DNA of 64,000 nt, taken from positions 62,001 to 126,000 of the forward strand of contig CADAIP010000010.1 of assembly GCA_902787975.1 (NCBI GenBank). The letters are read 5' to 3'. Below are positions 25,315-64,000 of this stretch, piece after piece (the stretch's first letter is position 1; every line of letters starts with the position of its first letter). Origin of the DNA: Oscillospiraceae bacterium. GTDB taxonomy: Bacteria; Bacillota; Clostridia; Saccharofermentanales; Saccharofermentanaceae. The notes beneath the pieces were generated by a model. It saw only the letters and a program-made list of their open reading frames with translations. It did no database searches and was not told where the DNA came from. The position numbers and the translations under genes are program-made.

Positions 25315-25330
25315 TTCAAAACACTCTGTG

Positions 25331-25413
25331 TTAAGCATCCCTACGTTGGCATTATCCAAATCAGGTTCTCGGTCGAAGGTCGCACCTTCCTCTCAGCCTG
25401 TATACAAGCTCCC
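25331..25413 (-). promoter_or_regulatory. TPP riboswitch (THI element)
   Basis: Read on the minus strand, the aptamer shows the conserved pieces in order: GGGAGC, CTGAGAGG, GACC ... GAGAACCTGAT, GGATAAT and GTAGGGA. These are the pyrimidine- and pyrophosphate-sensing arms of the THI box. It controls the thiW-thiM/E-thiD-thiC operon. The terminator at 25281-25314 follows. Confidence 0.97.
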
Positions 25414-25514
25414 GTTTCCGTATTCAATTTTCGAAAAGAAGATTACACTAACATATCTATAAGTTCAAGAGGTTTTTGAAATTATTTGCGTATCTGGACT
25501 CCAGATATAAACGC

Positions 25515-32839: not shown

Positions 32840-33011
32840 TAACCAACTTATAAAACTGAGCTTTTAACTCAATCAATAGATCGGAATTCCGATCATCGGC
32901 AGTGGACCCGGCTGTCCGTATGGCCTTAACTCCATCATGGAGTGGTCCGTAAAATCACCTAAGACTCTGATTAACTTCGTCTATGCTTGATATTTTATGT
33001 CTCCATAAAAC
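32840..33011 (-). ncRNA. Candidate structured RNA (independent RNA or distal part of the spe leader)
   Basis: Starts about 7 bases after a strong minus-strand promoter (33018-33046). In order it can form: TTTTATG-GAGA-CATAAAA; AATCA ... TGATT; a three-way junction closed by GGACC/GGTCC with inner hairpin ACTCC-AT-GATGGAGT and a GGC/GCC arm; the palindrome GATCGGAATTCCGATC; and TGAG ... CTCA followed by GTTTTAT, a weak terminator. No protein-coding frame fits. 6S RNA was considered but its open-bubble rod is not evident. 3' end uncertain. Confidence 0.55.
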
Positions 33012-55990: not shown

Positions 55991-57532
55991 ATGGCGCAGG
56001 AGATGATCCTTGTCCTCGATTTCGGAGGACAGTATAACCAGCTTATTGCCAGAAGAGTCAGAGAGCTCTCGGTCTACAGCGAAGTAAGACCTCACACAAT
56101 GAGTCTCGATGAGATAAAGGCACTTAATCCGAAAGGCATCATACTTACCGGCGGTCCTTCAAACGTATACGATGACGATTCCCCGAAATGCTCGCCCGAC
56201 CTATTTAAAATGGGCATTCCTGTACTCGGTATCTGCTACGGCGCTCAGCTCATGAACTATCTTCTGGGCGGCGAAGTGAAGGCTGCTCCGGTAAGAGAAT
56301 ACGGACACACCGACGTTCTTGTCGACACAGACGCAAAGCTTTTCAAGGACGTCTCACCCAAGACAGTATGCTGGATGAGCCACACGGTCTACATCGCACA
56401 GCCCGCGCCCGGATTCAAGATCACGGCTCACACGGAAGTCTGCCCCGTCGCAGCAGCGGAGAACGTTGAGGAGAACCTCTATTGCGTTCAGTTCCATCCC
56501 GAAGTCGTACACACAGTTGAAGGCACAAAGATGCTCGCAAACTTCGTTAAGGACGTCTGCAAGTGCAAGTGCGACTGGAAGATGGATTCATTTGTTGATA
56601 CATCCATTAAGGAGATCCGCGAGAAGGTCGGCACAGGCCGTGTCCTCTGCGCTCTTTCCGGTGGTGTTGATTCATCTGTTGCAGCAGTCCTTCTTTCAAA
56701 GGCTGTCGGCAAGCAGCTCACATGCGTATTCGTTGATCACGGTCTCTTAAGAAAGGACGAAGGCGACGAGGTTGAAGCAGTCTTCGGTCCTGAAGGACCT
56801 TACGATCTTAACTTCATCAGAGTCAATGCCCAGGAGCGTTTCTATTCAAAGCTCGCAGGTGTTGAAGATCCTGAGACAAAGCGAAAAATCATCGGTGAGG
56901 AATTCATCCGCGTCTTCGAAGAAGAAGCAAAGAAGATCGGTGCCGTCGACTTCCTCGTTCAGGGCACTATCTATCCTGACGTTATCGAATCCGGCCTCGG
57001 CAAGAGCGCCGTCATCAAGTCACACCACAACGTAGGCGGACTTCCTGACTATGTTGATTTCAAAGAGATCATCGAGCCCCTCCGTCTCCTCTTCAAGGAC
57101 GAAGTAAGAAAGGCCGGCCTTGAGCTCGGCATCCCTGATAACCTCGTTTTCCGTCAGCCGTTCCCCGGCCCCGGACTCGCTATCAGGATCATCGGCGAAG
57201 TTACTGCAGAGAAGGTTAAGCTCGTTCAGGATGCAGATGCGATCTTCAGAAGAGAAATGCAGCTCGCAGGCTTCGACAAATATGCTAACCAGTATTTCGT
57301 AGCCCTCACCAATATGCGTTCAGTAGGATGCATGGGTGATGAGAGAACATACGATTACGCATGCCTCTTAAGAGCAGTTACAACAACAGACTTCATGACC
57401 GCCGAAGCAGCAGAGCTTCCCTGGTCACTCATCAACAAAGTCACAAGCAGGATCGTCAACGAAGTCAAAGGCATCAGCCGCGTCTTCTACGACTGCACGG
57501 GCAAGCCCCCGGCAACGATTGAGCTTGAATAA
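55991..57532 (+). CDS. guaA: GMP synthase (glutamine-hydrolysing)
   Basis: 513 residues from the ATG at 55991 (GGAGG upstream). The glutaminase domain has [11 protein letters not shown] with the nucleophile Cys and QFHPEV with His and Glu. The ATP-pyrophosphatase domain has the P-loop [11 protein letters not shown]. The C-terminal dimer domain ends [17 protein letters not shown]. It converts XMP to GMP. The guaA 3' end is a known integration site for tyrosine-integrase islands, and such an element lies downstream here. Confidence 0.98.
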
Positions 57533-57550
57533 CCGACAAAAATCATAAGA

Positions 57551-57580: not shown

Positions 57581-57818
57581 AATATCTTCCGTGAGTTCAT
57601 TTTGAGTTCACTTTGTTTTATTTTGGAATAATCAGAATATTATTTCTGATGTTTTCTGCTGCATAAAAAATCATGTTATGAATGATTAGATTTCTACCTA
57701 AAAAGCATGGTGAATACCTTCCGGTGTGCTTCAATTTTTTCTTTATTTTTCTCAAAAACGATCAAAAACATAATTCCCAACCTGCCTAAAACGGTATTTT
57801 TCGCCCCTCAAAAACGGC

Positions 57819-57867
57819 CTTAGTGTTAAGAACTCTTAACACTAAGTGCCATTTTGGGCACTTTTTT
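57819..57867 (+). terminator. Palindrome plus terminator-like hairpin before the RNA repeat region
   Basis: CTTAGTGTTAAGA / TCTTAACACTAAG (57819-57846), directly followed by AAGTGCC-ATTTTG-GGCACTT and TTTTT. The first of three hairpins of the same type that separate the RNA repeat units. 57581-57818 holds nothing I can name. Confidence 0.75.
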
Positions 57868-57889
57868 GAAATTTCTTCGAAAACGAGGC

Positions 57890-58135
57890 TAAAAAACAAC
57901 CCCTCTCAGTCAAGTAGTAGTGAAGGGAGAAATATCTTCAAACCTGAACCGAAAGAACGAAGCGATAAAAGTCGTGTTCTGCAAAATTGATTTCATGTTA
58001 GTTTTAGGACTTTATATCAAATTTCAGACAACTTTTATTAGCACCCTTCTTTTTGGCTCTCCCCCATTCCTTAAGGGTGAAAGACGTTTTCTTCTTAAGG
58101 CACCCCATAGTGTTAAGAAGTCTTAACACTAAAAG
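57890..58135 (+). repeat. Degenerate first unit of the structured RNA repeat
   Basis: Begins CTAAAAAACA(A)CCCCTCTC then AGTCAAGTAGTAGTGAAGGGAG, nearly identical to the start of the third unit at 58762. Similarity stops after about 60 bases. It ends with the hairpin TAGTGTTAAGA/TCTTAACACTA (58108-58131) and T-run. The structured core is missing. Confidence 0.75.
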
Positions 58136-58207
58136 CTTTTTTCGATTATTCGTCAATTTGACAAGGCCAAAATGCTAGGACAGCAGAGGGGTGTTTGTGG
58201 AGTAAAG

Positions 58208-58590
58208 GTGAAGGATGAAATATTTCGAACTTCACCGCAGCTTGACAATTGAATACTAAACCGAAAGGTACGTTAACTTGTATCGGTGTTAAAATACCAA
58301 GCCAAGTTGATCCCGACCGCGCGATGACCTTCCGAAAGGGAGAGAGCGATAACGGGGATGGATCAGAATCGGGATTGCACCCCGAGGGAGGCGATGACAG
58401 GTACAAAGTCATAATGATACTTCTGTGAAGAGCAGCGGAGGCGAATTGGTCTCCGGGGTGGGATTTCGAAGTTCCCACTCATGATCTCGTAGTCAGCAAT
58501 ACGAGAGCCTTCCGGTTTCCCAGGGAGATTCGAAAGCCAAAAGGCCAGTAGGTCTCTCGCCCGCAGGGGGGCTACAGGAGAAATACTGCG
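58208..58590 (+). ncRNA. Copy A of a ~383-nt structured non-coding element
   Basis: From GTGAAGGATG to AAATACTGCG, nearly collinear with copy B (58794-59175). Helices visible: GTGAAG/CTTCAC; AACTTG/CAAGTT; GATCC (58309-58313)/GGATC (58360-58364); GGAG/CTCC; CTCGT (58486-58490)/ACGAG (58501-58505). At two of these, both partners differ from copy B, keeping the pairs. No open frame is shared by the two copies. I cannot assign a known RNA family. Orientation is taken from the terminator hairpins. Confidence 0.7.
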
Positions 58591-58692
58591 ATAATTCGAG
58601 TTTGAGAACAAGGGTATTGAAACCAGAAGATTTCCACCAAAAACGACTCAAAACTGTCATCAGACAAATGTCAAATTGGGCTCAAAAATGGG

Positions 58693-58732
58693 CCGGTCTG
58701 TTAAAAAGTGTTAACAGATCGGGATATTTTTT
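58693..58732 (+). terminator. Hairpin with T-run after RNA copy A
   Basis: CCGGTCTGTTAA / TTAACAGATCGG (one G-U pair), then TATTTTTTC. Same type as the hairpins at 57819 and 58108. Confidence 0.75.
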
Positions 58733-58793
58733 CAAGTTTTTCAAAAAAACTCAGAAATGATGCTAAAAAACACCCCCTCTCAGTCAAGTAGTA

Positions 58794-59175
58794 GTGAAGG
58801 GAGAAATAACTTCGAACTTCACCGTTACTTGACAACTGAATACTAAACCGAAAGGTACGTTAACTTGTATCGGCGTTAAAATACCAAGCCAAGTTGACTC
58901 CGACCGCGCCATGACATCTTTCGGGAGAGAGCGATAAAGGGGATGAGTCAGAATCGGGGTTGCAACCCGAGGGAGGCGATGACAGGTACAAAGTCATAAT
59001 GATACTTCTGTGATGAGCAGCGGGGGCGGATCAGTCTCTGGGGTGGGATTTCGAAGCTCCCACTCATGATCCCGTAGTCAGCAATACGGGAGCCTTCCGG
59101 TTTCCCAGGGAGATTCGAAAGTCGAAAGGCCAGTAGGTCTCTCGCCCGCAGGGGGGCTACAGGAGAAATACTGCG
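58794..59175 (+). ncRNA. Copy B of the ~383-nt structured non-coding element
   Basis: Second complete copy, offset 586 bases from copy A, with the CCCCTCTC leader at 58773-58781. Paired segments GACTC (58896-58900)/GAGTC (58945-58949) and CCCGT (59071-59075)/ACGGG (59086-59090) are compensated versions of those in copy A. CGGGGTT-GC-AACCCG is a perfect arm. No terminator hairpin like the others follows. The next gene is the minus-strand repressor of the mobile element, about 100 bases on. Confidence 0.7.
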
Positions 59176-59278
59176 GAAAAAGAAATAAATCTATGGATAA
59201 CTATACCTAAAAAAACACGTTAAAACGAAATACGATTATGTGCAGTATTGATCGTGTTTACAAATACAATAGGGGATA

Positions 59279-59902
59279 TCAGTCCTCAAGTATACTGATA
59301 CCCTTAGAAGAGTCCAGGCTTATCTTATAGCTCGTTAAGTTTATCTCGAGTAATCCGATATCCTTTTTTGCTTGATCCAAGCATGTCTTTTCTTTGCGGG
59401 AGAGTTTACTCTTTCCTTCAAGATTGGAAATGGTGTTGTAAAGTGATTCCCATTCGATCATCTTCGAAAGCACGAAGTCGTTTTGGAGTTGGAGCGTGAT
59501 CTTCGAAAGATCAAGGGAACCTTTAACATCAGGATATAAAAGTCTGAAATATGCAAACAAAGTATCTGAAGTAGTAAAGCGGGCGGTATTCCTGATAATG
59601 ACACCATTCTCATCTCTGTCGCCGGAGAGCGTCATTACACCGGACTTGTGAAGAGACAATAATAGTTCAAACAAATTGCCGAGAGTTCTAAAACTCTTTG
59701 TTTCGGATTCGAGATCATTAAGTATGGAATAACTGATTCCCAGTGCAGTTGCAATCTTTCTTAGCTGGTCATCTCGTGGAGTCATCTTTCCTGATTCGTA
59801 ATTACAGATAGAAACATAGTGAATGCCGCTGGCTGCTGCCAACTCTCTTTGAGTCATATCCGCACTCTTACGATAGTATCTGATCCTTTCTCCTATTGTC
59901 AT
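59279..59902 (-). CDS. XRE-family repressor of the mobile element
   Basis: 207 residues. N-terminal HTH (about 2-60): IGERIRYYRKSADMTQRELAAASGIHYVSICNYESGK. The C-terminal part has no peptidase or sensor motif that I recognise. GGAGGTAAGT lies before the ATG. It is divergent from the xis-int genes, with a paired operator between them: the lysogeny-type switch arrangement of integrative elements. Confidence 0.88.
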   Translation of the reverse strand: MTIGERIRYYRKSADMTQRELAAASGIHYVSICNYESGKMTPRDDQLRKIATALGISYSILNDLESETKSFRTLGNLFELLLSLHKSGVMTLSGDRDENGVIIRNTARFTTSDTLFAYFRLLYPDVKGSLDLSKITLQLQNDFVLSKMIEWESLYNTISNLEGKSKLSRKEKTCLDQAKKDIGLLEINLTSYKISLDSSKGISILED

Positions 59903-60057: not shown

Positions 60058-60291
60058 ATGGAAAATATTAAGTTTTATGTAACAGCCGAAGAGCTTTCAG
60101 AAGCTTACGGCATCTGTTTATCCAAGGCCTATAAGTTGATCAGACAGCTTAACGCCGAACTTGAAGCAAAAGGCTTCATTATAGTTCAGGGCAAGGTTCC
60201 GAGAAGATACGTAGAAGAACGTGTATACGGGTATTCTCCGGTATCTTCGATCCGGGAGGAGGAACCCGGTTCTGATAAGGAGGCCGTATGA
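60058..60291 (+). CDS. Small excisionase-like DNA-binding protein
   Basis: 77 residues. A winged-HTH like Xis/MerR-type excisionases: FYVTAEELSEAYGICLSKAYKLIRQLNAEL, then GKVPRRYVEERVYG. It overlaps the integrase start by four bases, the usual xis-int coupling. It would direct excision together with the integrase; a regulatory role instead is possible. Confidence 0.75.
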   Translation: MENIKFYVTAEELSEAYGICLSKAYKLIRQLNAELEAKGFIIVQGKVPRRYVEERVYGYSPVSSIREEEPGSDKEAV

Positions 60292-61370
60292 GTGCACAGA
60301 AAGATATAAATACAGGAAAGTGGTATATCCAGTACCGGTATACCGACTGGACGGGAAAGCGCAAGCATTCGGTTAAGCGTGGTTTTAACACAAAGCGTGA
60401 AGCCGAGGATTGGCTTATAAGTTTTCAGCATAAGAAGGGGTCAAAGCTCAACATATCTTTTGGAGAGTTCACAGAGATGTACTTTGAAGATATGTCGGCC
60501 AGATTAAGAAAGTCAACACTTTTAGGTAAGCGGTATCTGTTTGACTCGAAGATCCTTCCGTATTTCAAGGACAAACAGCTGGATGAGATAACAGTATCCG
60601 ATATCAGAAAATGGCAGAATCATCTCATAAAAACGGAGAAATCTGCCACTTATATCAAGACGATCAATAATCAGATGGCCGCATTATTCAATTATGCCGT
60701 CAGATATTATGATCTTGGTTCTAATCCTTGTGCTAAGGCCGGAACCATAGGTAAATCTAATGCTGACGAGATGAACATCTGGACACTGGAAGAGTTTACG
60801 AAATTCCTTGATGCAATTATCGATAAACCACAGTCATATTTGGCTTTTATGCTTCTCTTCTGGACTGGTATGCGTGTAGGTGAACTCTTGGCTTTAACGC
60901 CGGCTGATATAGATTGTGAAAACCGTGTTATCAGGATTACTAAATCATATCAACGTCTTAAAAAAGAAGATCTTATAACTGAGCCGAAAACAGAATGCAG
61001 CCGAAGGAAGATTACGATACCTGAATTCATAATCCCGTATATTCAAGATTATGAGAGCCGTATCTATGGTCTCAAGAAGAATGATCGGTTATTTCCCTTC
61101 ACAAAGGATTTTCTTGAGCACGAAATGAAGCGGGGAGTCAAAACCTCAAACGTTAAGAAGATCAGGATACACGACCTTCGTCACAGCCATGCAAGTCTGC
61201 TTATATCTATGGGATTTGGTGTAAAGGAAATACAAAACAGATTAGGCCATCAGAAATCATGCACGACACTTGATACCTATTCACATCTGTATCCTGATTC
61301 TCAAGATAAGTTAGCAAGTAGATTGAACAGTATCTATAAAGGAGGCAGCGATGAAAAAGAAGAAGAATGA
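60288..61370 (+). CDS. int: Tyrosine recombinase (integrase)
   Basis: 360 residues. N-terminal arm-binding domain (GKWYIQYRYTDWTGKRKHSVKRGF), core-binding SAM-like domain about 60-160, catalytic domain with Arg in TGMRVGELLAL, HxxR in HDLRHSHASL, Lys in the beta-hairpin region (EPKTECSRRKI), and nucleophile Tyr in TLDTYSHLYPD. AAGGAGGCC leads the ATG. It integrates the element, most likely at the guaA 3' end upstream. Confidence 0.95.
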   Translation: MSAQKDINTGKWYIQYRYTDWTGKRKHSVKRGFNTKREAEDWLISFQHKKGSKLNISFGEFTEMYFEDMSARLRKSTLLGKRYLFDSKILPYFKDKQLDEITVSDIRKWQNHLIKTEKSATYIKTINNQMAALFNYAVRYYDLGSNPCAKAGTIGKSNADEMNIWTLEEFTKFLDAIIDKPQSYLAFMLLFWTGMRVGELLALTPADIDCENRVIRITKSYQRLKKEDLITEPKTECSRRKITIPEFIIPYIQDYESRIYGLKKNDRLFPFTKDFLEHEMKRGVKTSNVKKIRIHDLRHSHASLLISMGFGVKEIQNRLGHQKSCTTLDTYSHLYPDSQDKLASRLNSIYKGGSDEKEEE

Positions 61371-61713
61371 ACATAATCGCAAAAGAAACCGGTCGATTAC
61401 CTTCAGGCTTACAAGAGAAGAAGAGCTTAAGATCAGGGAGCGGATTAACGTTCTAGGTATCCCGATGCAGGAGTTTTTTCTTGATTCATTCACCAGTACT
61501 GAGATAGTTATCTTATGGGGAATGTTTGCGAACGAGCGTCTTGCTATTGAGATTAAAAGATTAAGTAACGTTCTTGAAGATGCCCTCTCTCTTGAAGATG
61601 ATAACATCGATGTTGATGAAGTTCTTGATGATGTGAGGTGTTGCCGCATCTGTCTTGAAGAGATCGAGAGCATCCTCCGGCAAGGGCATCAGCTTCCGGA
61701 GGAACAACTCTAG
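61351..61713 (+). CDS. Small basic ribbon-helix-helix-like protein
   Basis: 120 residues. Very basic start (KKKKNEHNRKRNRS), then ITFRLTREEELKIRERINVLG resembling the RHH region of MobC-type accessory proteins, and an acidic C-terminus with CCRIC. Preceded by GGAGGCAGCG and overlapping the integrase end by 20 bases. It may be a mobilization accessory or regulatory protein; the assignment is weak. Confidence 0.6.
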   Translation: MKKKKNEHNRKRNRSITFRLTREEELKIRERINVLGIPMQEFFLDSFTSTEIVILWGMFANERLAIEIKRLSNVLEDALSLEDDNIDVDEVLDDVRCCRICLEEIESILRQGHQLPEEQL

Positions 61714-62894: not shown

Positions 62895-63218
62895 ATGAGC
62901 AGAAGGAACAAAGCCGTCGTCATCCGCTTCACCGAAGATGAATGGCGGTCACTTAATGACAAGGTGAAGAAAACAAAAATGCCAAGAGAGAAGTTTTGCA
63001 GAGCGGTGCTTCTTGGGGCCAAGATCAATGCTCCCCCGGATGCGGATTATGTGTCCTTGATCTTCGAGGTCAGGCGTGTCGGCAATAATCTCAACCAGCT
63101 TGTCCGCAAGCTGAATGTTTTGGGAATAGTACATGGACTTGAGCTGGAAAGAAACCAGAACGAGATCCATGAGGTATGTGACATGTTGTGCGATACCTTC
63201 AGGAAGGTGGTGAAGTGA
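62895..63218 (+). CDS. mobC: MobC-family relaxosome accessory protein
   Basis: 107 residues. N-terminal RHH-like AVVIRFTEDEWRSLNDKVKKTKMPREKFCR and the MobC motif VRRVGNNLNQLVRKLN. It binds near oriT and helps the relaxase open DNA. GAGGTAAACATATCC precedes the ATG. The relaxase start lies two bases after its stop. Confidence 0.9.
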   Translation: MSRRNKAVVIRFTEDEWRSLNDKVKKTKMPREKFCRAVLLGAKINAPPDADYVSLIFEVRRVGNNLNQLVRKLNVLGIVHGLELERNQNEIHEVCDMLCDTFRKVVK

Positions 63219-63219
63219 T

Positions 63220-64000
63220 ATGGCGGTAACGAATATGTGGGCAGTAAAAGGCAGTGTATCCTCAGTCGTTAAGTATATCGAGAACCCGGAGAAGACAACC
63301 CCGAGAGATATGCAGCAGGTAATGTCATATATCACTGATACAGACAAGACTGAGCAGATGATGTATGTGACAGGAATTAACTGTGAACCTGAGATCGCAG
63401 CAAAGCAGTTTACTCAGACCAAGCAGCTCTGGGGAAAGGAGGGCGGCAGGGTAGCATATCACGGTTATCAGTCCTTCAGAGCCGGAGAAGTCGATGCGGA
63501 AACGGCGCACAAGATCGGCGTGGAACTTGCGGAGCGGTTGTGGGGAGACAGATTTGAGGTTGTCGTTGCAACGCATCTTAATACCGGACACTACCATAAT
63601 CACTTCTGTTTGAACTCTGTATCGTTCCGGGACGGTTATAAGTATCACGATACTAAAGAAGACATCCGACGCATGAGAGATACCTCTGATGCGATTTGCA
63701 GGGCATACGGATTGTCTGTCGAGAAAGCACCTAAAATCGATCAGAGTAAGCGCAGGAACTATCGTGAATGGAAAGACCAGCGGGAAGGCAAAGTAACGCT
63801 AAGAAGCAATGTAAAGGCTGATATAGATGCAGCCATAGCCTATAGCAGATCTGAGGAGGAATTTGTTTCTGTAATGAGATCTATGGGATATAAGTTTATT
63901 ATCAAAACAGAGACCGGAAAATATCTTAAGTATGCCAAGCTCAGACTTCCAAACTCAGACAGATGTGTAAGGCTTGAGTCCTTAGGCCCGGGTTATGACC
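63220..64000 (+). CDS. Relaxase / mobilization nuclease, N-terminal part (cut by window end)
   Basis: 260 codons are seen and the frame is open at the window edge. Likely nicking Tyr19 in VVKYIENP. The metal-binding His cluster THLNTGHYHNHF (His119, 124, 126, 128) is the signature of MobA/VirD2-type relaxases. It nicks and carries the transferred strand from oriT. Directly follows mobC. No type IV secretion gene is visible before the window ends, so the element could be mobilizable only. Confidence 0.93.
   Translation, partial: MAVTNMWAVKGSVSSVVKYIENPEKTTPRDMQQVMSYITDTDKTEQMMYVTGINCEPEIAAKQFTQTKQLWGKEGGRVAYHGYQSFRAGEVDAETAHKIGVELAERLWGDRFEVVVATHLNTGHYHNHFCLNSVSFRDGYKYHDTKEDIRRMRDTSDAICRAYGLSVEKAPKIDQSKRRNYREWKDQREGKVTLRSNVKADIDAAIAYSRSEEEFVSVMRSMGYKFIIKTETGKYLKYAKLRLPNSDRCVRLESLGPGYD

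Follow-up and report, generated by a model that had tools for sequence, protein, structure and literature searches.

We report that the window, by which we mean the whole 64,000-nucleotide stretch analysed here (positions 62001-126000 of contig 10 in a 51-contig assembly), carries two complete copies of a structured RNA which, judged by homology, are relatives of the canT region of Tn916. The copies are arranged head-to-tail, are approximately 400 nt each and are mutually ≈90% identical, and each of them very probably serves an integrative mobilisable element as a processive antiterminator RNA of the canT type, present here as a tandem duplication. RNAs of this kind are known but have barely been explored, and the array is a tandem variant of them; of greater interest is the wider family. 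Specifically, the window leads to a family-wide fold, supported by covariation, for canT (described in 2024), a known inactivating mutation can be placed on one of the family's most conserved boxes, and two orphan Rfam motifs, pemK and dinG, gain a likely function. Moreover, it becomes testable which parts of the RNA, and which host factors, are required.

The tandem array

The array is located between guaA, which ends at 57532, and genes for an XRE-type regulator, an integrase and mobilisation proteins. The two full copies of a structured element described in the earlier note were recovered both as direct repeats in a self-comparison of the window (58213-58590 and 58800-59175; 94% and 89% identity, spacing 585-587) and as matches to R1, a covariance model of the core made solely from sequences of the window's genus. 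Copy A, full length by repeat comparison (58208-58596, + strand), comprises a core domain at 58239-58424 (R1, 219.7 bits) with the boxA-like element CTTGACAATTGAAT at 58241-58254, of a type enriched within the family, a pemK domain at 58411-58472 (RF02913, 38.2 bits, gathering score 34.8) that opens with AUAAUGAUACUUC, and a 3' hairpin, CUCGU/ACGAG, at 58486-58505 (alignment A5). The corresponding parts of copy B, delimited in the same way (58780-59180, + strand), are a core domain at 58826-59009 (206.1 bits), the boxA-like element CTTGACAACTGAAT at 58828-58841, a pemK domain at 58996-59069 (43.8 bits, gathering score 34.8) and a 3' hairpin, CCCGU/ACGGG, at 59071-59090 (alignment A5). For both copies the predicted folding beats 100 of 100 shuffled sequences (z -4.75 for copy A and -2.56 for copy B), and the window's list of open reading frames contains none of ≥50 amino acids common to the copies, in keeping with the absence of a shared reading frame noted before.

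A third, degenerate copy had been placed at 57890-58135. What stands is a partial copy at 57863-57943 (+ strand; 84% identity to 58737-58817) consisting of leader and 5' hairpin only; the R1 search gave no core match there, and the folding energy of 57860-58105 is at the level of shuffled sequence (z -1.14). The TTAAC-type terminator hairpins are real and precede the fragment and each copy (57818-57855, 58105-58142 and 58693-58730). The leftmost (57819-57846, + strand), a near-perfect inverted repeat scored as a terminator on the minus strand, is a candidate insulator; the intrinsic-terminator-like hairpin before copy A (58108-58131, + strand) was found by the terminator scan, and the one between copies A and B (58693-58722, + strand) has a 12-bp stem and a T-rich tail. 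A promoter scan of the regions before the copies was at chance (13 versus 10.1 ± 3.6 predictions), with none convincing.

The same genome has a third full-length core at C10:5971-6156, upstream of a same-strand gene that appears ATPase-like on the basis of its GDPGEGKS motif. Elsewhere in the window, on the minus strand, there is a TPP riboswitch (25321-25425) and a strong match to the Streptococcus sRNA SpF59 (32896-32948, 71.9 bits); given that this is a clostridial genome, the SpF59 family may be wider than its name.

The mobile element at guaA

The array was suspected to be an element-associated large RNA, and it does lie on a mobile element, upstream of and on the same strand as the integrase and mobilisation genes. 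The gene in between, an XRE/Cro-type HTH regulator (59279-59902, - strand; PF01381), is convergent to the array. It is followed on the + strand by a small gene that is HTH/excisionase-like in position and appearance (60058-60291; no Pfam match), a tyrosine integrase (60288-61370; PF00589, PF14659, PF14657), a NikA-like mobilisation accessory protein (61351-61713; PF21983), a MobC/NikA-like mobilisation protein (62895-63218; PF21983, PF05713) and a gene that continues past the window (63220-64000) and is relaxase-like by its position and a HYHNHF motif in the translation.

The element begins on its left with GAGCTTGAATAACCGAC (57521-57537, + strand), a probable attachment core situated where guaA ends. 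Genome G027 has an element that is 98% identical to that of the window, with the identity starting at window position 57521, but is separated from guaA by a further ≈9 kb, and GAGCTTGAATAACCGAC, from the very end of guaA, recurs at the junction. This arrangement fits tandem accretion of two elements at the guaA attachment site, which places the array inside the mobile element. The ≈9 kb between guaA and the element in G027 (C9:19073-28234) include an integrase-like stretch and no R1 match, and probably represent another element at the same attachment site. A right-hand attachment copy was searched for on the window's contig and not found.

In a comparison with genome G076, identity falls from 97.6% in the element to 89% in and around guaA and 81.5% in the purA region, a pattern that fits recent horizontal transfer of the element. 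The first copy in G076 is a shortened chimera, with its 5' part from copy B and its 3' part from copy A, so the two copies do recombine with one another.

Homology to canT of Tn916

One R1 match (locus L089:1501-1674; 36.7 bits, E = 7.5e-5 per genome) has a modest score and a rough calibration; because the identical score recurs across unrelated families, a single promiscuous element was suspected. Its neighbours carry the Tn916 excisionase (PF09035) and Tn916 integrase DNA-binding (PF02920) domains, and plasmid records that bear a Tn916 excisionase annotation match the stretch at 100% identity; on this sequence evidence we identify the locus as Tn916. The R1 match lies between orf8 and xis, opposite in direction to the overlapping 83-codon orf5.

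canT was reported as a 452-nt region of Tn916 acting in cis as an orientation-specific processive antiterminator, most likely as an RNA (Wirachman & Grossman 2024, PMC11658703). It gives read-through of the T1-T3, gatB, rrnB and lambda terminators, and it works on foreign terminators and with a foreign promoter without other Tn916 genes (PMC11658703). The substitution canT(S3), ATA to TGC, was aimed at a tyrosine and is inactivating (PMC11658703). It starts 283 nt past the orf8 stop, and as this stop is at L089:1376-1378, the substituted bases are L089:1661-1663; these are codon 65 (Tyr) of orf5, in agreement with the targeted tyrosine. They are the first three bases of an AUAAUGAUACUYC box (ATAATGATACTCC in Tn916; AUAAUGAUACU(U/C)C), and the Tn916 pemK match also starts there. 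The box, ATAATGATACT(T/C)C at DNA level, is intact at window positions 58411 and 58996 as well as at L089:1661, and the change that kills canT thus falls within one of the family's most conserved boxes. Moreover, Rfam's pemK model scores above gathering in both window copies and in Tn916, a link that is independent of R1, and the view that no family matches the repeats was therefore mistaken.

The window RNAs and Tn916 canT share the core fold and boxes captured by the covariance model, the pemK domain, the essential AUA box, xis-int downstream on the same strand, an insulating terminator and the location on a mobile element. They differ in that the window has two full copies and a fragment in tandem, which lie at the left edge of the element as integrated and before a convergent XRE gene; the element itself, as far as seen, looks mobilisable, whereas Tn916 is a full ICE. 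Separately, the Rfam family SQ2397, a cis-regulator of an HTH factor, is found upstream of a Tn916-type canT at L086 2733-2962 (219 bits, above gathering) and at L089 236-441 (35 bits, below gathering).

Conserved structure and covariation

Covariation across the family is very strong. In alignment A1, 28 sequences of the window's genus aligned structure-blind, the consensus has 37 core pairs, of which 20 show changes on both sides, and compensated cells number 94 compared with 30.2 ± 4.8 after shuffling; sliding the pairing partners by 1 to 3 columns abolishes the signal. These data bear out the selection for RNA structure that had been proposed from the copies alone. The compensatory differences quoted for this, GATCC/GGATC against GACTC/GAGTC and CTCGT/ACGAG against CCCGT/ACGGG (the latter being the 3' hairpins at 58486-58505 and 59071-59090), were read correctly, and both helices are among those conserved in the relatives' alignments. 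Alignment A2 extends into other families with its 71 matches; here 33 of the 37 pairs changed on both sides and compensated cells number 689 versus 172 shuffled, figures that lean towards the structure since A2 was fitted to it.

A long-range helix closes the core. In the window its strands are ACUUGUAUC and GGUACAAAGU, whose pairing includes one G-U pair and a bulge; the Tn916 strands are CGAUAAGAA and UUCUUAUCG. The helix is absent from the single-sequence minimum-energy folds of both copies, and these folds were for that reason not used as structure. Secondary-structure predictions for canT proved hard for its authors to interpret (PMC11658703).

The pemK and dinG motifs and other RNA families

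RF02913 is filed in Rfam as Cis-reg without a stated function, and no function for pemK or dinG RNA was found in the literature searched. The pemK match spans 61 model positions in each window copy, i.e. it covers one part only, 3' of the core, of the ≈400-nt RNA; the dinG model (RF03082) scores 27.9 and 21.1 in the two copies, below its gathering score of 46.9. Among 40 distant R1 loci, unselected for either motif, 37 have pemK and one has dinG. The start of pemK or dinG falls approximately 12-14 nt before the end of the R1 match at 38 of 40 loci (20/20 and 18/20), and dinG, which occupies this position in L088 and G807, starts with the same AAUGAUACUUC box. Since both motifs start at the 3' end of R1, they seem to represent the 3' portion of a longer RNA and to leave its 5' half uncovered. 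A further count, 67 of 69 R1 matches with pemK or dinG, is not a rate, the set being drawn from the pemK matches listed.

ROOL and GOLLD, named in the earlier note as families to search for, were not among the matches listed for the Rfam covariance models (up to E 10), and neither were HEARO, EAR, raiA or other large Rfam RNAs. The window RNAs resemble the rrn boxA/Nus system, HK022 put and EAR in having a boxA-like box of the rRNA spacer kind and, as we envisage, in being RNAs that modify their own polymerase; in Rfam they match neither EAR nor any other known antiterminator RNA.

The conAn system of plasmid pLS20, composed of the ConAn1 protein and conAn2 RNA, gives processive antitermination in an operon of a Gram-positive mobile element (PMC8955417). 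Like the window RNAs as we envisage them, it acts on a mobile element's operon, but it differs in needing its protein partner for long range. The R1 and pemK models gave no match in the whole of pLS20 and conAn2 was rejected as a relative, with no detectable homology; not every antiterminator RNA of such elements thus belongs to this family.

A boxA-like box at the 5' end

The core begins with the consensus YYUUGAMAAYUGAAUA. The pre-23S rRNA spacers of family-bearing genomes have the same kind of box, e.g. TTGTTCTTTGAAAACTGCACAACG and ATGTTCTTTGAAAATTGAATAACG, which we take to be boxA, the NusB-S10 site of Firmicutes rrn operons; the assembly of the window's own genome has no 23S match. The pattern YTTTGAMAAYT was matched at ≥9 of 11 positions in 37 of 47 distant members versus 44 of 751 random windows, and the active 452-nt fragment of Tn916 starts 3 nt inside the box, so that the box may not be required. 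In copy B the strand before the 5' hairpin can pair with the box (GUCAAGUA/UACUUGAC, window 58783-58834), as it can in the relatives L021, L025 and L030 (CAAUGUCC/GGACAUUG), so that the box could be hidden in transcripts starting further upstream.

Genes and terminators around the relatives

Within 9 kb downstream of 40 loci, 232 of 338 ORFs are on the strand of the RNA. The 120 downstream same-strand proteins examined include 24 tyrosine integrases, 15 large serine recombinases, seven PemK, six NikA-like proteins, five MobA/VirD2 relaxases and five ParA; none of these families is among the 25 listed for 120 control proteins, which came from the same genomes and in which no listed family has more than three occurrences. 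Genes of several kinds come first downstream (integrase, serine recombinase, ParA, AAA ATPase, PemK or a replication-type HTH protein), and homologues are therefore not always beside integrases, a point that the earlier note had proposed to check. The 320 nt before the copy contain a terminator-like hairpin in 20 of 58 cases compared with 39 of 400 control windows (p = 3.5e-6).

Several canT-like RNAs have a c-di-GMP-I riboswitch approximately 0.5-1.3 kb upstream on the same strand (L076 2641-2728, L077 2640-2727, L078 502-589, L096 914-1003 and L094 2930-3022), and these sites possibly mark a signal-controlled promoter region of the elements.

Proposed function and alternative explanations

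For an antiterminator of the canT type we envisage that the RNA, once made, would remain with the polymerase that transcribed it and act in cis, the boxA-like box possibly acting via host Nus factors. A polymerase bearing the RNA would ignore intrinsic terminators further along, both between the copies and inside the xis-int-mob operon, and the hairpins before each copy would halt host-derived polymerases lacking it. Since the XRE gene after copy B is on the opposite strand, read-through would run antisense to this gene before reaching xis-int. A broader and rather doubtful extension is that pemK, dinG and canT form one very widespread class of boxA-bearing, Nus-recruiting antiterminator RNAs and that copies in tandem work as a relay. 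In such a relay, each copy's RNA would carry the polymerase through the terminator before the next copy, and only polymerase from the element's own promoter, re-armed at each copy, would express the transfer genes.

That RF02913 is classed as cis-regulatory, together with the seven PemK toxins among the 120 downstream proteins, could be taken to mean that the RNA is a riboswitch- or attenuator-like leader which senses something and controls the next gene. We consider such a gene-specific role improbable: the first downstream gene varies widely, and canT of Tn916 acts on foreign terminators and a foreign promoter without other Tn916 genes (PMC11658703). Still less credible is a trans-acting, guard or decoy RNA, or the RNA of a type III toxin-antitoxin system, which a large and ornate RNA in tandem repeats on a mobile element might bring to mind. 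The RNA is homologous to one reported to act in cis (PMC11658703), no toxin gene adjoins the array within the window, and the repeats are 400 nt and not short. The guard or decoy role suggested earlier also sits poorly with the relatives, which are upstream of varied same-strand mobile-element genes, as expected for a cis-acting antiterminator.

The array might instead be a decaying remnant with at most one working copy, the second being a by-product of recombination, which is compatible with antitermination by the working copy. The first copy is merely a fragment, G076 has its shortened B/A chimera, and fragments upstream of a full copy are also present in G040 and G022. Both full copies, however, keep pairing where they differ and retain the AUA and boxA-like boxes, and tandem pairs approximately 588 nt apart recur in G009, in G026 and at another G027 locus (C12). 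We thus regard decay as unlikely, and continue to favour two canT-type antiterminators.

Distribution of the family

DNA similarity searches of phage and plasmid collections, and an exact-pattern search in viral contigs, returned nothing. R1 matches occur at order level in 42 of 188 genomes, at class level in 79 of 393 (59 of 219 genera) and in the phylum sample in 17 of 398. The pemK model matches 128 of the 393 class genomes, representing 85 of the 219 genera, and 0 of 14 control genomes. Carriage by about one fifth (R1) to one third (pemK) of the class genomes sampled points to RNA-based antitermination as a switch in common use among clostridial mobile elements. Finally, dinG matches occur in two genomes of the class sample, one of them at an R1 match.
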